Of a stretch of 64,000 nt of DNA, positions 43,235 to 49,566 are shown one piece after another. The notes below the pieces were generated by a model. That model made no database searches, was not told the DNA's origin, and saw only the letters and a program-made list of their open reading frames with translations. A program made the translations under genes and the position numbers. How positions within the stretch are numbered: the stretch's first letter is position 1; each line of letters starts with the position of its first letter. Origin of the DNA: Enterococcus pallens ATCC BAA-351 (GTDB lineage Bacteria; Bacillota; Bacilli; Lactobacillales; Enterococcaceae); assembly GCF_000407485.1 (NCBI RefSeq), contig NZ_ASWD01000002.1, positions 992,001 through 1,056,000 on the forward strand. Reading direction: 5' to 3'.

Positions 43235-44071
43235 TCATTCACCTAACTCTTTAGATTGGAAATTTCTAGATTGCTTCATAATATCTTGGAAGGTCGCTAC
43301 CATGGTCTCTTCAAACAAAGGATTTTCAACCCGCTGTGCTACTTTTTCTAAGACAGCATCTTCTCGGCTTTGATCCAGAATATCTTTTTTGTTTTCCTTT
43401 TTATAGGCGGTGACTTCTGTTACTGCCTGTAGTCGTTTTTCTAACAATGCCACTAATTGTTCATCAATAGCATCGATTTTTTTACGAGCTGCTTCGAGCT
43501 TATTGGCTTTGTCATCCTCATCAATGGTCCGAATAATTCGAGCTGGATTTCCCCCAAGCACCACATTGTCTGGAAATGATTTGGTTACTACTGAACCAGC
43601 TGCGACTACCACGTTGTTTCCTAGCGTCACACCTGGCGTAATTACCACTGAACCACCAAACCAAACATTGTCGCCAATAGTAATCGGTTTGCCAAATTCC
43701 ATCCCACTGTTGCGCTTCACTGGTTCAACCGGATGAGTCGCTGCGTACAGTTGGCAATTAGGACCAAACATGCAATTATCACCAATAGTTATCGGGCAAA
43801 TATCTAGAAAAATACTGTTAAAGTTGCAGTAGAAATTTTCGCCCACCGAGATATTGTAGCCATAATCAAAGGAGATAGTCGGCTCGATGTAGACATGATT
43901 GCCCGTTTTACCAAAGGTTGATTTGACGATCAGCTCTCTTTTGGCTGCATCGGTTTCGCTATTGATTGCTCGCATTTTCACTCGGGCATCTTTACGATCA
44001 GCCACCAATTCGGGATCACCTGCAAAATATAAATCTCCGGCAATCATTTTCTCTTTTTCTGTACGTTCCAT
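43235..44071 (-). CDS. Fusion of a maltose-type O-acetyltransferase and an AroQ chorismate mutase
   Basis: The 278-residue product has two parts. Residues 1-185 are a hexapeptide-repeat acetyltransferase (MERTEKEKMIAGDLYFAGDP; catalytic His113 in YAATHPVEP; NPARII closing the helix). Residues 191-275 are a class II chorismate mutase. By my alignment with the E. coli domain all key residues are kept: Arg196, Arg213, Lys224, Arg236, Glu237, Gln262. AGGAGG lies six bases before the ATG at 44071; the frame opens 13 codons earlier. It follows the sirtuin gene by 10 bp. The fused roles are not obviously linked. Confidence 0.85.
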   Translation of the reverse strand: MERTEKEKMIAGDLYFAGDPELVADRKDARVKMRAINSETDAAKRELIVKSTFGKTGNHVYIEPTISFDYGYNISVGENFYCNFNSIFLDICPITIGDNCMFGPNCQLYAATHPVEPVKRNSGMEFGKPITIGDNVWFGGSVVITPGVTLGNNVVVAAGSVVTKSFPDNVVLGGNPARIIRTIDEDDKANKLEAARKKIDAIDEQLVALLEKRLQAVTEVTAYKKENKKDILDQSREDAVLEKVAQRVENPLFEETMVATFQDIMKQSRNFQSKELGE

Positions 44072-44081
44072 CAAAATCCTC

Positions 44082-44780
44082 CTATAGCTGTTCGAAAACA
44101 GTACTGCCATCGGCTTCTACAAAGTCATGCATCATCGGAACATGGATCGGTGTCCGATTGATAGCCAGCACTGCGGCATTTTCGTTCTTTTCATAAATTA
44201 AATCACAAAACGGATGGACTTGAAAGCTTGTTCCAATGATTACTAACAAATCTGAAGCTTTTACCGCTTGAATAGCTTGGCTAATGGTATCATCGGTAAA
44301 ACCTTCGCCATACAAAACAATCCCTGGTCGAATCTGCCCTCCGCAATTTTCATGCTGATCATTCTTCAAATATTCTTGCCAAGGCACCGTCTGCCCACAC
44401 TTGCGGCAATAGCAATCATAAAGTGAGCCGTGAAAATTCACCAAGTGTTGACTGCCGGCTGCTTGATGCAGACCATCAATATTTTGCGAAACAATCCTGA
44501 TCGGTTTACGTTTCTCCAATGCTGCCATCTTTTGATGAATTACGTTTGGTTTGGCAGTCGGATGGTACAACGCTTTAACAAAGGAATAGAATTTCTCCGG
44601 TTCTCGGTCTAAGCAATCAACACTCAATAAATACTCCGGTGCTTCCATACCATGATAAACACCTTTCAAGGATCGATAATCTGGTACTCCTGATGGCGTT
44701 GAAACACCTGCTCCAGTTAAAAAGGTAATGCTGCTTGCCGCTTGTATTTTCTGCACTGCTGCTTGAATGGTTGTTTCCAC
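44082..44780 (-). CDS. Sir2-family NAD-dependent protein deacylase
   Basis: The 232-residue product has the NAD-binding GAGVSTPSGVPDYRS at 23-37, SQNIDGLHQAAG near 95 and the catalytic His in NFHGSLYD. A zinc module follows, in which the usual four Cys appear as C-x2-C (CRKC) plus H-x2-C (HENC). The start is GTG at 44780 with GAGGTG six bases upstream; a GTG three codons earlier overlaps that site. It is the first gene of an operon with the acetyltransferase-chorismate mutase and niaR. No macrodomain or lipoyl-carrier gene is adjacent, so the SirTM system is not indicated. Confidence 0.88.
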   Translation of the reverse strand: METTIQAAVQKIQAASSITFLTGAGVSTPSGVPDYRSLKGVYHGMEAPEYLLSVDCLDREPEKFYSFVKALYHPTAKPNVIHQKMAALEKRKPIRIVSQNIDGLHQAAGSQHLVNFHGSLYDCYCRKCGQTVPWQEYLKNDQHENCGGQIRPGIVLYGEGFTDDTISQAIQAVKASDLLVIIGTSFQVHPFCDLIYEKNENAAVLAINRTPIHVPMMHDFVEADGSTVFEQL

Positions 44781-44937: not shown

Positions 44938-45162
44938 TTATTGTAATTGTCGTTCCAGTTCTTTTACTTGTTCAATAGATAACCCGGTGCCTTGAGCTAC
45001 TTGTTCTGGGGATAGACCCATTTTCAAGAAATTAATTGCCGTTTCAATTTTATTTTCTTCTCTGCCTTCTCTTCTAGCAGTGGACAGTTCTGCATTCCGG
45101 ATCGCTCGACCTTTGTCGATCTTTAACATCAACACTTCCCCCTCCTCTTCTCGTCCACACAT
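44938..45162 (-). pseudogene. Duplicate C-terminal fragment of the Rpn-type gene
   Basis: The 74-residue frame is nearly identical from KGRAIRNAELSTARREGREE to VKELERQL with the end of the neighbouring Rpn-type gene at 45239. The copy has lost everything before this tail, including the nuclease domain. The tail ends in a helix-turn-helix-like LSPEQVAQGTGLSIEQVKEL. An AGGGGGAAG-like site precedes MLKIDKG, so a short peptide might still be made, but a decayed tandem copy is the simplest reading. Confidence 0.8.
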
Positions 45163-45238: not shown

Positions 45239-45868
45239 TTATTCTAATTGTCGTTCCAGTTCTTTTACTTGTCCAACAGACAACCCGGTCCCCTGAGCTA
45301 CTTGTTCTGGGGATAAACCCATTTTTAAGAAATTAATTGCTGTTTCAACTTTATTTTTGGTCTGGCCTTCTTCTCTGCCTTCTCTTCTAGCAGTGGACAG
45401 TTCTGCATTCCGGATCGCTCGACCTTTGTCGACTCGCATAATCATTTTCTTCTCCTCCTCGTTTAATGAGTAATAATTAACCTTCTTCTGGGCATCCTTC
45501 AAATACTGAGGGGCATGCTCTGCCACTTGGCCAGTTTTGAAAAATTGCTGCCAGTGGTAAACAGGGCTGTCTGTTTCAATGTTTTTATTTTTCAAGCTAA
45601 GAAAACATAAGCGATGGATTTTTTGGCCTTGGCTGCCTAAAAAAGGTCTATGAGTTTTGTCATTGTGGTAGCTAATATTTTGCAACGCATCCTCATCTTT
45701 AGGAAACATATGAAAGTCAATGATGTTTATGCCGTATGCAGCGCGCAGAGTAGAAAATTGGTTATCCTCTTCAAAAGCTTCAGCATCTTCATCACCATAA
45801 GGGGAAGCATACGCAGCGGACAAATAAAAGACTGCACGTTCTCTGAAAAAATCATGGCTGCGGACCTG
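45239..45868 (-). pseudogene. C-terminal part of the interrupted Rpn/PD-(D/E)XK nuclease family gene
   Basis: The 209 residues start QVRSHDFFRERAVFYLSAAY and end with LSPEQVAQGTGLSVGQVKELERQLE. They are the downstream part of the gene whose N terminus lies at 49321-49566. The Q that begins this part is the last residue of the ExQ catalytic motif of the PD-(D/E)XK fold. The upstream ATG that could restart it belongs to the target triplet at the element border. Joined to the N-terminal part the product is 291 residues, the normal size for Rpn-type proteins. Confidence 0.9.
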
Positions 45869-45900
45869 CATTTCTTATGTAAAGCTTTGCATAAGAAATG
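45869..45900. repeat. 32-bp near-perfect palindrome at the left end of the RIT-type element
   Basis: The arms CATTTCTTATG and CATAAGAAATG surround TAAAGCTTTG, itself palindromic apart from the outer T/G pair. It contains CTTATGTAAAG, close to the GTTATGTAAAG end of the terminal repeats, so it is a probable recombinase site. Confidence 0.8.
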
Positions 45901-45927
45901 TTATGAAAAGTAAATAGTTATGTAAAG
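45898..45927 (+). repeat. Left 30-bp terminal inverted repeat of the RIT-type element
   Basis: It begins ATGTTATGAAAAG and ends AGTTATGTAAAG. It is identical, inverted, to 49294-49323. An inverted copy of its last 13 bases lies inward at 45973-45985. Confidence 0.92.
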
Positions 45928-45982
45928 AACATCAAAATAGTGCCCGTAGATCAACTATCGTGATGCTCTTTACTTTACATAA

Positions 45983-46987
45983 CTAAAGTGAAGTTTTCAA
46001 CCATTCAACCAATTCTGATTTTTTTTCGTCCGTATACTTTGTATCAGAATGAACTTCTGAATAGTTTTTTTCCAATATCCTTCGCTTTATTTCTGGGTTT
46101 ACCCTTGCATAAATTTCTGTCGTATTCACTGAGGCATGTCCTAATAAATCTCGGATATAAATCAAATTAACCCCAGCTTCCAACAAATGCATGGCTTTAC
46201 TATGCCTCAAACTATGGTTGGAAATTTTTTTGAGAAATAAGTGTGGATTCTCCTGTCGAGCTTTTTGGATATTTTTATCCAATATATACTGGACGCCTGC
46301 TCGGGTCAATTTCTTATTTACATTATTTCGAAAGACGTATTGTTCTGAAGAAATATTCAGATTTTGATCTTTAAGGTATTCCCTCAGTAAGTCACGGACT
46401 TCTAATGAAAAAGGTATTTGACGATATTTAGCGCCTTTTCCAAGAACCTCCACTGAAGGTGGCGAAGAAAAGCGAATATTACATATTTGGGTCTCAATTA
46501 TCTCTTGAACGCGACAGCCTGTATCATACATAAAGGATAATAACGCCTTTTCTCTGCGCCCCTTTTTAGTAGTATTATCAGGCATAGATAAAAGTATTTT
46601 TAACTCTTTTATTGTTAAATATGCTATTTGTTGAGTGATCTTTTTTTTGCTAGGAATGTCTGTTATTCTTTCCCATTGACTCAAAAAGGCAAACTCTTTT
46701 CGTTTTAAATAATTCGCAAAACTTTTTAAGCAACCTAAGCGTTGATTTCTTGTATTGATACTATTTCCACGATTTTCTTCTAAATAGTTGAGGAACCTTT
46801 CAACGATTGCTTCATTAAAATCTTCTAGCTTTATGTTGTCAGAAGTAATTCTTTCGTGCGTTGCTAAATAGTCAAAAAAGAGCACGAAAGTGTCTCGATA
46901 AGATTCAATAGTCTTTTTTGAGCAACCTAAGAATTTAGTTAAATAACTTGAAAAATAATTCATCACATAAAATGAAAAGCCATGCAT
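45983..46987 (-). CDS. Tyrosine recombinase, third of the trio (RitC-like)
   Basis: The 334-residue product has an N-terminal SAM-like DNA-binding domain (FSSYLTKFLGCSKKTIESYRDTFVLFFDYL) and a C-terminal catalytic domain. All active-site residues are present: Arg in YDTGCRVQEI, Lys in GKGAKYRQIPF, HSLRH, LLGHASVNTT and the nucleophile Tyr in EIYARVN. It starts one base after the RitB stop. Its own TAG lies inside the inner repeat of the left end (45973-45988). Confidence 0.92.
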   Translation of the reverse strand: MHGFSFYVMNYFSSYLTKFLGCSKKTIESYRDTFVLFFDYLATHERITSDNIKLEDFNEAIVERFLNYLEENRGNSINTRNQRLGCLKSFANYLKRKEFAFLSQWERITDIPSKKKITQQIAYLTIKELKILLSMPDNTTKKGRREKALLSFMYDTGCRVQEIIETQICNIRFSSPPSVEVLGKGAKYRQIPFSLEVRDLLREYLKDQNLNISSEQYVFRNNVNKKLTRAGVQYILDKNIQKARQENPHLFLKKISNHSLRHSKAMHLLEAGVNLIYIRDLLGHASVNTTEIYARVNPEIKRRILEKNYSEVHSDTKYTDEKKSELVEWLKTSL

Positions 46988-46988
46988 G

Positions 46989-47972
46989 TCAATCTTCCTC
47001 TCCTTGATAGAACAAGTTACCGATATACTTTTTCACTTTTGTGCTCACATTTTTATGTTGCTGAACGGTTAGTCGTAAATAGTTTTCAGTTTGAGTCAGG
47101 TGTTCATGTCCTAAATAAACAGACAATAAAGGAAGTGCGGCATAAAGATCAATTCCTTCTTTTTCTGCCTTTTCAAGCGCATGAATGGCAAACGTATGAC
47201 GTAAGTCATGAATTCGAGGTAAATTACCGCCCTGTCGATATGGAATGTAAGAGTCTACTAGTAGTTTCCTATATCTACGATATAGAGACCCTATAGAATA
47301 ATGTTCGTCATAAGAATTCGGGTGATGAAAAATGAATTGGTTAGGTTCTAAGTGGGAACTGTAAGAGGTCATATAGCTTTGTAATTGTGCATGCACACTA
47401 TCAGATAATGGAATGATTCGACTTATATGATTTTTAGAATCAATGATTTCAATAATCCCTTGATCCACTTTACAATGTTTTTTCCGTAAATGCAGTCCTT
47501 CGGAGCGACGCAGACCACAAGAGTAGTACAAAATGAATAATAAGGTAAACGCATCATTTGAATAATCCTTTTGATTGACGATCTTTTTTAGATTATCAAA
47601 TAGACGGATAATCTCCTCGTGAGTAAAAATGTAAGGGACAAAAGAGCTTTTCAGGTATCTCGGTTCAAATGGATCAATATAAATATTTGGATAACCCATG
47701 TCAGTTAATATATGACAAATATCACAGAGTACTTTGATTCGCATGTTATGGTAGACTTTTCCTTCATTGTCAGTTTGTTCGCACCATTTCTCATACATTT
47801 CCTGTGTAATAATTGGTTTCGTTGGTTTAAACTGACTGAGAAATTTTGCAATTCGTCTATAAAAACCAACATAGCAGTCGCCATAATCATAACCTATTCC
47901 TCGTTTGTATTGAATAACACGCTCAAATGGTTCGTTGTAAGGTTCGGCGAACTTATAATTATAAAAAGACAT
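46989..47972 (-). CDS. Tyrosine recombinase, second of the trio (RitB-like)
   Basis: The 327-residue product has an N-terminal core-binding region and a catalytic domain with YYSCGLRRSEGLHLRKKHC, IHDLRHTFAIHAL, YLGHEHLTQTENY and its nucleophile Tyr. The active-site set is complete. It overlaps the RitA gene by 14 bp and has GGAGGTGCC before its ATG. Like the other two it is far more similar to phage-type integrases than to XerC/D. Confidence 0.92.
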   Translation of the reverse strand: MSFYNYKFAEPYNEPFERVIQYKRGIGYDYGDCYVGFYRRIAKFLSQFKPTKPIITQEMYEKWCEQTDNEGKVYHNMRIKVLCDICHILTDMGYPNIYIDPFEPRYLKSSFVPYIFTHEEIIRLFDNLKKIVNQKDYSNDAFTLLFILYYSCGLRRSEGLHLRKKHCKVDQGIIEIIDSKNHISRIIPLSDSVHAQLQSYMTSYSSHLEPNQFIFHHPNSYDEHYSIGSLYRRYRKLLVDSYIPYRQGGNLPRIHDLRHTFAIHALEKAEKEGIDLYAALPLLSVYLGHEHLTQTENYLRLTVQQHKNVSTKVKKYIGNLFYQGEED

Positions 47973-49182
47973 AAGGCACCTCCAAAGAAAATTCTCTTAA
48001 TTTGGTTTCGTCAATGGTCAGATATTTCTCTGTCGATCTTATTTGCTTGTGTCCTAGAACATTAGAAATTGCGCTAATTGGAACTGACTCCTGCATCAAA
48101 TTTGTCGCAAGTGAATGTCTCATGGCATGGGCCCCCGCATGCTTACCAGTAATATCAATTTCTGCTCTTAGAAAGACTCGTTTAACGATAGAAGAAATTC
48201 CACCAATAGAAAATTTGTGATAGGGAGCACAGCTAATTAAAAAAATATGATCCAAGTCCTCATTGACCGCTTTTCTGCTGTTCTTAATGTAATCTAACAA
48301 GGCAAATTTCATTTCGGGCAATAATGGAAGTGTCAGAGGTTCGCCGCTTTTCTTTTGCCTGATAAAGAAAACATCGTTTTCCCAATCAAGTTGCGCAAAC
48401 GTCATCTCTAATAAATCAGATGCACGTATTCCAGTATAATAAAGAGTTGTAATAACTGCCATTTCAAGTTTACCTTGAACAGAGTTTATATCGATAACAT
48501 CAAATGCTTTTCTCATATCTTCTTTACTATAATAAGATAATATAGATAATCTCTGACTAGAATGGATAACTGGAAAGATAGAATACCCAGAAAACGGGCA
48601 AATTTGTTTATCAAACATCCAATCAATTGCTTGTCTAAGATTTCCACGATGTAAATCCTTAGTATTTGGAGAGCTTTCTAAACTATTGATGAATTGATGG
48701 ACAAGTGTAGTAGATAGTTCTCTAAATGAATAGACCCGGTTTTTATCTAAAAAAAGAAGGAATTTTCCCATTGTCCATAACTTATTTTTTTTTGCTTGCT
48801 TCTGACAAGTGATTAAATTATCTACGAAATCTTTGTATTCTAAATAAAAATCTAAAAATGCAGTAGGGATATTTGTATAAGCCGTGTTGTGATGTCTTAA
48901 TAAGTAATTTCCAGTGTGATAAAATTCAAACAGTAAAAGTACGGGGCGGCGAAGAGTAAATTGTAATTGGCAGTTAGGGGCATCTAAATCAAAGTCGAAG
49001 GATTCTTTAAAAAAATTTCGAGCTTCATTAGAGTTCACCTTCTGAATATTTCTCTTAACACAGAAAGTTTCAAAAGTATGACCAATCCATAAAAAATGAT
49101 CCAGTGTATTGTCGGAATATCCATCGCCTTTCATTTTTTTGATAAGTTGATTCATAGTAGGAACAATCTGATCGGTATCCAT
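47959..49182 (-). CDS. Tyrosine recombinase, first of the trio (RitA-like)
   Basis: The 407-residue product starts MDTDQIVPTMNQLIKKM and has a long N-terminal region before the catalytic domain. That domain has TTLYYTGIRASDLLEMTFAQL (Arg), RQKKSGEPLTLPL (Lys), AHAMRHSLATNLM, VLGHKQIRSTEKYLTID (His and nucleophile Tyr). The frame is open to 49293, inside the terminal repeat, but AAAGGAGG lies eight bases before the ATG at 49182. About 400 residues is normal for this class. It is the first gene of the trio, which must be transcribed from within the right end. Confidence 0.9.
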   Translation of the reverse strand: MDTDQIVPTMNQLIKKMKGDGYSDNTLDHFLWIGHTFETFCVKRNIQKVNSNEARNFFKESFDFDLDAPNCQLQFTLRRPVLLLFEFYHTGNYLLRHHNTAYTNIPTAFLDFYLEYKDFVDNLITCQKQAKKNKLWTMGKFLLFLDKNRVYSFRELSTTLVHQFINSLESSPNTKDLHRGNLRQAIDWMFDKQICPFSGYSIFPVIHSSQRLSILSYYSKEDMRKAFDVIDINSVQGKLEMAVITTLYYTGIRASDLLEMTFAQLDWENDVFFIRQKKSGEPLTLPLLPEMKFALLDYIKNSRKAVNEDLDHIFLISCAPYHKFSIGGISSIVKRVFLRAEIDITGKHAGAHAMRHSLATNLMQESVPISAISNVLGHKQIRSTEKYLTIDETKLREFSLEVPYVFL

Positions 49183-49293
49183 GTAAAAACCTCCTTTTCT
49201 TTTATTTGGATACAAATCAACTGTACCACCATCTTTCATTATGTGAAGAAAAAAAGTGAATAGACATTGACAAATCAACGTCTGTTCACTCAA

Positions 49294-49323
49294 CTTTACA
49301 TAACTATTTACTTTTCATAACAT
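49294..49323 (-). repeat. Right 30-bp terminal inverted repeat of the RIT-type element
   Basis: Exact inverted copy of 45898-45927. An imperfect inner copy lies at 49233-49248. Between them 49256-49265 and 49280-49289 form a 10-bp inverted pair with a 14-bp spacer. Confidence 0.92.
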
Positions 49324-49566
49324 CTCGATAGTCACCTGCGTGCCATCATTGCTGGCAGCCAGCACGTCCACCTCCGTGTACTTCAGCTTGTTCTCATCCT
49401 CCAAAGATTGTTTGTAGCTGTCAATGTGATAGGTGTCTCTAGGCGTCAGGGTCTCAAATTCCTCGCCAAGAACATCTCTGACAAAAGCTTTTAGAATGTG
49501 ATTGGTATCCTTAGATGTAAAAAGCTTGTGAAATAACAGATCGTTGGTTGGTAAATAGTTGGGCAT
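49321..49566 (-). pseudogene. N-terminal part of the interrupted Rpn/PD-(D/E)XK nuclease family gene
   Basis: Codons 1-82 (MPNYLPTNDLLFHKLFTSKD to VTIEM) carry the start of the PD-(D/E)XK fold with the catalytic Asp in KYTEVDVLAAS and the Glu of ExQ. After M82 the RIT-type element adds Leu and a stop. Rpn-type proteins (PD-(D/E)XK nuclease family transposases) can promote recombination and are common, often decayed, accessory genes. The AGAGAGGACG-type site before the ATG is intact. Confidence 0.88.

Follow-up and report, generated by a model that had tools for sequence, protein, structure and literature searches.

An intact recombinase-in-trio (RIT) transposon of Enterococcus pallens ATCC BAA-351 very likely moves in the form of a ring that has a pair of inverted attachment sites, through either of which it would insert into the same codons of Rpn genes, as comparison of its copies argues. 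The transposon lies in a stretch of 64,000 nucleotides (the window, to which all coordinates refer; contig NZ_ASWD01000002.1, positions 992,001 to 1,056,000). Judged by sequence, its gene trio is a RIT element with three intact tyrosine recombinases, RitA, RitB and RitC, and represents a new sequence lineage. An initial annotation made from the sequence alone had placed the element at 45869-49323. While the trio it described stands, the element itself begins at 45875, where a palindrome has its outer edge, and ends at 49320, with a 6-bp spacer on either flank and another inside, and the terminal repeats and the palindrome, the second attachment site, the copy number of eight and the target rule had escaped notice.

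Element ends and circular permutation

The body of the element is bounded by 27-bp inverted repeats, each of which holds a 10-bp motif twice in direct order (T1, TTATGAAAAG; T2, TTATGTAAAG). The ritA-side repeat (49294-49320, minus strand) contains two direct copies of TTATGNAAAG, T1 at 49311-49320 and T2 at 49294-49303, and the ritC-side repeat (45901-45927, plus strand) has its T1 at 45901-45910 and its T2 at 45918-45927. Beyond the ritC-side repeat follow 6 bp, a 20-bp near-palindrome, TTATGCAAAGCTTTACATAA, made of two inverted copies of the 10-bp motif (45875-45894, no strand), another 6 bp and then host DNA. Read in the direction of the target, the spacers are GAGATG on the left (49321-49326), CATTTC inside the element (45895-45900) and GAAATG on the right (45869-45874), all on the minus strand. 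The internal spacer is thus the reverse complement of GAAATG; most other copies have CATCTC. Since T1, 6 bp and a palindrome arm make up a complete core-type site, closure into a ring would create a second, inverted one. We propose that the palindrome and the ritC-side repeat constitute an attachment site Y, with the internal spacer as its putative overlap, and that in the ring the palindrome and the ritA-side repeat would constitute a site X. Arm and T2 agree at 8.63 of 10 positions when taken from one element and at 6.93 of 10 when taken from different ones, as expected if an element's own enzymes bind there; none of 2,000 shuffles reached the within-element value. This test covered 38 elements, namely the window element and the 37 RIT loci described below; the match between arm and T1, being part of the selection, was not used.

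The host genome contains eight copies of the element, seven of them complete and one read as split between contigs C4 and C13 and counted once. Among the seven complete copies, six share a body that is the same at all 3,420 bp, and in the remaining one a non-coding run upstream of ritA is shorter by a single T. Otherwise, the complete copies differ only in orientation and at spacer position three (GAA or GAG, either of which encodes Glu), a variation that extends to the internal spacer, which is no longer in contact with host DNA. Between copies, the flanking Rpn DNA is 64-92% identical on the left and 64-98% on the right, with means of 72 and 71% (21 pairs). Identical bodies between divergent Rpn flanks point to transposition, and duplication of an entire Rpn-RIT cassette, which we also considered, is excluded by this flank divergence. 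All eight insertions occur at one point of divergent Rpn genes, between the codons for Ile-Glu-Met and that for Gln, and the polarity towards the target gene is constant regardless of the direction of the rit genes.

The palindrome lies at the ritC end in the three copies in which ritA comes first and at the ritA end in the five, including the split copy, in which ritC comes first. Its asymmetry turns with the orientation of the element in all eight copies, and a perfect split of three against five would arise by chance once in 56. When the spacers are masked, the window copy is related to three others (c4, c5 and c6) by exact circular permutation, with 0 mismatches over 3,452 bp; two (c2 and c3) are linearly identical to it, and one (c7) differs in length by the lost T. 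Exact permutations were also found between the Bacteroides salyersiae loci L125 and L126, within Escherichia coli WP4-S18-ESBL-07 (L240 and L245 against L243 and L244) and within E. coli 550 (L246 against L247). Units that differ only in the point at which a circle is opened imply a circular intermediate that opens at two places. Chance or misassembly was rejected as the source of this pattern, since body, repeat, palindrome and unique flank lie within ~60 bp at each end, making orientation and phase independent of long-range assembly. In Bradyrhizobium, Thauera and Ferrigenium the position of the palindrome also varies between copies, which have it at either the ritA or the ritC end, but their palindromes are perfect and hence uninformative on phase.

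Some of these relatives are of note in their own right. The E. coli elements L240 and L243-L248 are RITs that carry an extra gene of 191 aa, and WP4-S18-ESBL-07 has identical copies in methyltransferase genes of its chromosome and of three plasmids. Several metagenome contigs with RitB relatives are ~3,447-3,482 bp long, near the size of a RIT circle, and could be circles or collapsed repeats.

Spacers, empty sites and the Rpn target

Uninterrupted counterparts of the target genes bear on the origin of the spacers. For three of the insertions, one other genome of the genus has an orthologous Rpn gene that is uninterrupted, with an overlap of exactly 6 bp between the two flank alignments; for the other five host insertions no orthologous empty site was identified. 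Two of these three empty sites are informative and both equal the left spacer. A public Rpn protein of 299 aa (P0121) is likewise uninterrupted, agreeing with the N-terminal piece in the window at 81 of 81 residues and with the C-terminal piece at 157 of 159 residues in its first part and 93% over the whole. In E. coli, the RIT is located in DNA methyltransferase genes, yhdJ on three chromosomes and related genes on plasmids. A 36-bp empty yhdJ site with CGGGTC is present in 5,321 of 5,426 genomes (3,614 of the records reach at least 99%, the rest 95-99%), and the flank variant of strain 550 in 5,310 of 5,426 (1,694 at a level of at least 99%), while a search requiring 28 exact bases gave no match for the empty site with CAGGTC. 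The chromosomal copy of strain 550 has CGGGTC, the sequence of the empty yhdJ site, on its left and CAGGTC on its right, and in the plasmid copy of that strain CAGGTC is the internal spacer, belonging to the unused X site. This one informative case indicates that the 6 bp of the target remain on the left and that those of the circle are placed on the right. The same 6-bp rule has been described for the elements known as SEs and, according to the sections of that paper covered here, for Tn554 (PMC10214605). In B. salyersiae the two addresses of L125 and L126 differ, with GCTACG at X and ATTACG at Y, the X insertion being found at GCTATG and the Y insertion at ATTACG.

The proposed circle would thus comprise the body, the Y spacer, the palindrome and the X spacer, with X and Y each combining one arm of the palindrome with a 6-bp overlap and a terminal repeat. 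The two orientations would depend on whether X or Y recombines with the target overlap GARATG. The target's own 6 bp (presumably GAGATG in the window) would stay on the left, and the 6 bp of the circle (presumably GAAATG) would arrive on the right as the carried-in overlap of whichever site was used. Under this left-right rule the unused site would preserve the overlap of an earlier target. Perhaps the three motif copies of each site, that is arm, T1 and T2, serve the three enzymes, in that RitB and RitC may cut at the 6-bp overlap and RitA, with two core-binding modules, may hold T1 and T2.

In the window, the N-terminal part of the interrupted Rpn gene lies at 49321-49566 and the C-terminal part, which includes an RpnS-type C-terminal region, at 45239-45874, both on the minus strand. 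The insertion breaks up the nuclease part, and the C-terminal region remains downstream of it; the ExQ part at the insertion point is, we assume, the nuclease active site of the fold. Counted by locus and with short C-terminal fragments excluded, eight of the nine Rpn loci of the host are interrupted and one is intact. Solo palindromes that might be scars were absent at up to one mismatch from 20 genomes of the genus, the eight palindromes found being those at the eight copies, and none of the 19 other genomes holds the palindrome in a pattern search. Rpn systems are antiphage toxin-antitoxin systems in which the C-terminal part is also made alone as the antitoxin RpnS, according to the parts of the report covered here (PMC10327210).

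The end of the Rpn gene is duplicated downstream in the window (44938-45162 and 45239-45432; a 120-bp direct repeat at 92% and a 65-bp repeat at 100%). The duplication yields a separate 74-aa open reading frame (ORF) that resembles a stand-alone RpnS-type antitoxin and has no Pfam match, and further Rpn loci of the host likewise show additional C-terminal matches nearby.

Generality and competing explanations

An alignment-based search gave 299 RitB relatives in named genomes, from which 80 loci were kept. Of the 41 RIT loci whose ends could be resolved, 37 have a palindrome at 6 bp from the repeat, 16 of them on the ritA side and 21 on the ritC side. These 37 are what remains of 40 flagged loci after L101 and L114 (contig ends) and L109 (masked) were dropped by hand. 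The remaining 43 of the 80 include 26 loci that end within or near the element, two with the repeat at a contig end and one that is masked, besides those considered below. The offset between repeat and palindrome is 6 bp in 33 of 34 loci (a control 300 bp outside reached 8 of 10 pairs in 2 of 34), a result that is partly circular as the loci were preselected at 6 bp, so that the weight is placed on the 37 of 41 instead. Resolvable ends were not obtained for plasmid 2 of Aromatoleum (L242, three places) or for two of the nine Bradyrhizobium loci (L232 and L237), and no close copy of the B. salyersiae element was found elsewhere in 301 genomes drawn from a larger group, the best other match being 64% over ~1.3 kb. 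L104 and L170 have a palindrome beyond each of their two ends, which would look like the entry of a ring beside a left-over palindrome.

The targets at these loci were identified by comparing one flank piece per locus with Pfam at 20 of the 37. A fitting family was found at 17 of the 20, in 16 cases above the cut-off, namely IstB (four), IS66 genes (four), ArdC (two) and one each of DDE_Tnp_1, an integrase, RadC, MutS, YpsA, Amidoligase_2 and DUF6956. Genes of mobile elements account for 10 of the 17. Several cut points look like catalytic or nucleotide-binding motifs. We take those in IstB to be Walker A (L108, L110) and Walker B (L158, L176, whose IstB matches both end at profile position 160), those in ArdC to be the HELxH zinc motif (L145, L168), that in an IS66 transposase to be Asp-Glu (L106) and that in E. 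coli to be the DPF motif of DNA methyltransferases. The Bradyrhizobium flanks, which adjoin an annotated istA, presumably represent IstB Walker B as well, to judge from how they read. Lysozyme-like, TetR-like and RelE-like labels considered for L124, L128, L117 and L175 had no support in Pfam (L175 was outside the scan) and were not counted. Insertions of RITs in radC and IS66 are on record in the earlier account, as far as it is covered here (PMC2864759).

Several observations weigh against a circle with two attachment sites. No circle, junction read or excision product has been seen. Among the 80 loci, 10 have full flanks in which no terminal repeat was found, and four have repeats without a palindrome under the strict rule. 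Some permutations in E. coli are near rather than exact, L241 being 3 bp longer than L240 and L248 differing from L246 by two mismatches. In Leisingera, the A-side palindrome of L187 is inverted relative to the body when compared with L192 (98.4% identical), L201 and L150, and one such flip separates two sublineages in E. coli; these flips suggest that a segment can also be inverted by recombination of Y with X or with an end. The orthologous empty site of one Enterococcus insertion (L003), GAAATG, fits neither of its spacers, both of which are GAGATG. Finally, comparing spacers tells little at the 37 other loci. The internal spacer equals the right but not the left one in five and the left but not the right one in a single case (5:1 for the stated polarity), while all three are equal, and hence uninformative, in 11, left and right agree but differ from the internal one in six, and 14 give no full match.

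It is possible that a ring enters through a single site and that both orientations arise later, by inversion of the body in place, with the left end and the internal site as its limits. Such an inversion is feasible since the two share spacer and repeat in inverted order, and it fits the Leisingera copies as well as the flip between the E. coli sublineages. However, it predicts a palindrome that is fixed relative to the target, whereas the palindrome turns with the body in each of the eight Enterococcus copies, and also in E. coli (L240 and L245 versus L241, L243 and L244; L247 versus L246 and L248) and in B. salyersiae. We therefore consider in-place inversion improbable as the source of the two orientations. 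The palindrome could also belong to one terminus in the ordinary way, as a terminator or accessory binding site might, and not act as a second site of crossover. Indeed, inverted repeats and a palindrome flanking ritA and ritC of earlier RITs have been reported without a role being assigned in the sections covered here (PMC3414803). Yet the palindrome is found on either side (16 and 21 of the 37 loci), at 6 bp and with the element's own motif, copies that are otherwise the same differ in the inner spacer, and in E. coli 550 this spacer recurs as the outer one of another insertion, all of which makes an ordinary terminus very unlikely.

Since all host copies reside in paralogues, and right flanks reach 98% identity in the most similar pair, the element might have spread by recombination or gene conversion among Rpn genes rather than by transposition. 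We give hardly any credence to this, as flanks averaging ~71-72% identity surround identical bodies, gene conversion would not place both orientations at one target point, and one E. coli strain shows the same pattern across its chromosome and three plasmids. The circle with two inverted sites is the reading that we favour for the Enterococcus element, and we consider it rather probable, at a lower confidence, that it can be extended to RITs as a transposon class. A palindrome between the ends would make the circle bivalent, providing two inverted sites, each with a rewritable 6-bp address. One element would then hold two target specificities, insert both ways at a fixed target polarity and remember an earlier target. 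Six motif copies, three per site, would explain why three recombinases are retained, and addresses that are often codons of catalytic motifs would make a whole gene family saturable, here a family of toxin-antitoxin defence genes.

The recombinases, related systems and significance

The genes ritA (47959-49182, ATG at 49182, 407 aa), ritB (46989-47972, 327 aa) and ritC (45983-46987, 334 aa) are all on the minus strand, with a 14-base overlap between ritA and ritB and one base between ritB and ritC. They were called as ORFs, and each product matches Phage_integrase above the cut-off. The catalytic Arg, Lys, HxxR, His and Tyr are complete in all three proteins, and the corresponding columns are invariant or nearly so in alignments of 19 RitA, 23 RitB and 20 RitC sequences. 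In AlphaFold2 models, RitA is predicted to have two four-helix core-binding modules ahead of the catalytic domain (helices 3-90 and 107-191; pLDDT 85, pTM 0.53), and RitC an additional C-terminal helix at residues 320-333 (pLDDT 88.5, low around 311-318). A RitA with two core-binding domains and a RitC with an extra C-terminal helix are subgroup marks of RITs in the sections covered here of PMC8138268, and both predicted proteins appear to bear them, as judged on the models rather than on subfamily profiles. At 3,446 bp, with 27-bp repeats and a 20-bp palindrome, the element fits the RIT norm of ~3.5 kb, a repeat of ~28 bp and a palindrome. It is assigned to the RIT class on its size, the order and spacing of its genes, its inverted repeats and the structural marks of RitA and RitC; genome comparison, with eight copies and empty sites in relatives, points to its mobility. 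Among the 120 matches listed, the closest relatives of RitB are 42-43% identical, one fragment at 100% aside; in the family of the host, 1 of 104 other genomes has a relative, at 27% identity (E 1e-15).

These results agree with much of what the initial annotation had proposed. An intact RIT-type trio is borne out by the Phage_integrase matches, catalytic columns, repeats and structural marks, the protein sizes, the overlap or one-base spacing and the complete active sites were given correctly, and gene order and sizes do fit the class. The lack of cargo also holds, since the ORF list shows no further gene of note inside the element. The annotation had named a frameshift, or constant occupancy of the site without empty sites in relatives, as findings that would speak against it; the seven complete bodies are identical except for the one non-coding T, and empty sites are present in relatives. 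Elsewhere in the window, a 291-aa ORF (43235-44110, minus strand) encodes a maltose-acetyltransferase-like hexapeptide protein fused to a chorismate mutase type II domain, a fusion that seems unusual.

RITs have been described since 2009. The 2012 survey, in the sections covered here, reports no more than a repeat and a palindrome, which 'do not fit well' with usual recombinase sites, and finds three recombinases hard to explain (PMC3414803). The element resembles published RITs in its tightly packed A-B-C recombinase genes, ~3.5 kb length, inverted repeat (28-29 bp in those accounts), palindrome and insertion in genes (among them radC and IS66 tnpA in those accounts), but the accounts, as far as covered here, give no attachment sites, palindrome role, ring or target rule (PMC3414803, PMC2864759). 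SEs share the 6-bp spacer, with the target's 6 bp on one side and the circle's on the other, but are described in the parts considered as encoding IntA, Tfp, IntB and Srap and having one joint site, attS (PMC10214605), whereas here there are three recombinases and, by our account, two sites. Tfp and Srap beside IntA and IntB are not apparent, as the rit genes fill the element, though no search with Tfp or Srap models was made. Tn554 also has several recombination proteins and a 6-bp carry-over, and its TnpC influences the orientation of transposed copies; however, TnpC is called a counterpart of Srap and GinD and not a tyrosine recombinase, and the covered sections mention no second site borne by a palindrome (PMC10214605, PMC3414803). 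The Tn554-type set of TnpA, TnpB and a non-recombinase TnpC is not what we find, as all three Rit proteins match Phage_integrase. GInts have three tyrosine recombinases, a circular form and variable attachment sequences, but differ, in the account as covered, in their four-gene operon, large islands, flanking direct imperfect repeats and single site attI (PMC5385486). The Gamma-mobile-trio protein GmtY (NF040693) matched RitC only, at 20.2 bits against a cut-off of 340. We found no description of a two-site ring in the covered literature on RITs, SEs, Tn554 and GInts; Ricker et al. 2013, outside this coverage, may describe parts of the end structure. As far as this search goes, a two-site circle with rewritable addresses would be a new account of the RIT class, one that has exact comparative support.

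The exact circular permutations give the sites to the base and, with them, a concrete prediction for each recombinase, and E. coli yhdJ and Enterococcus Rpn provide a natural test system. If true, a circular form bearing two inverted addresses, both rewritable, would amount to a new way for tyrosine recombinases to bring about mobility. That eight of the nine members of an antiphage toxin-antitoxin family are interrupted in one genome suggests, moreover, a route by which part of the host's defences may be switched off.

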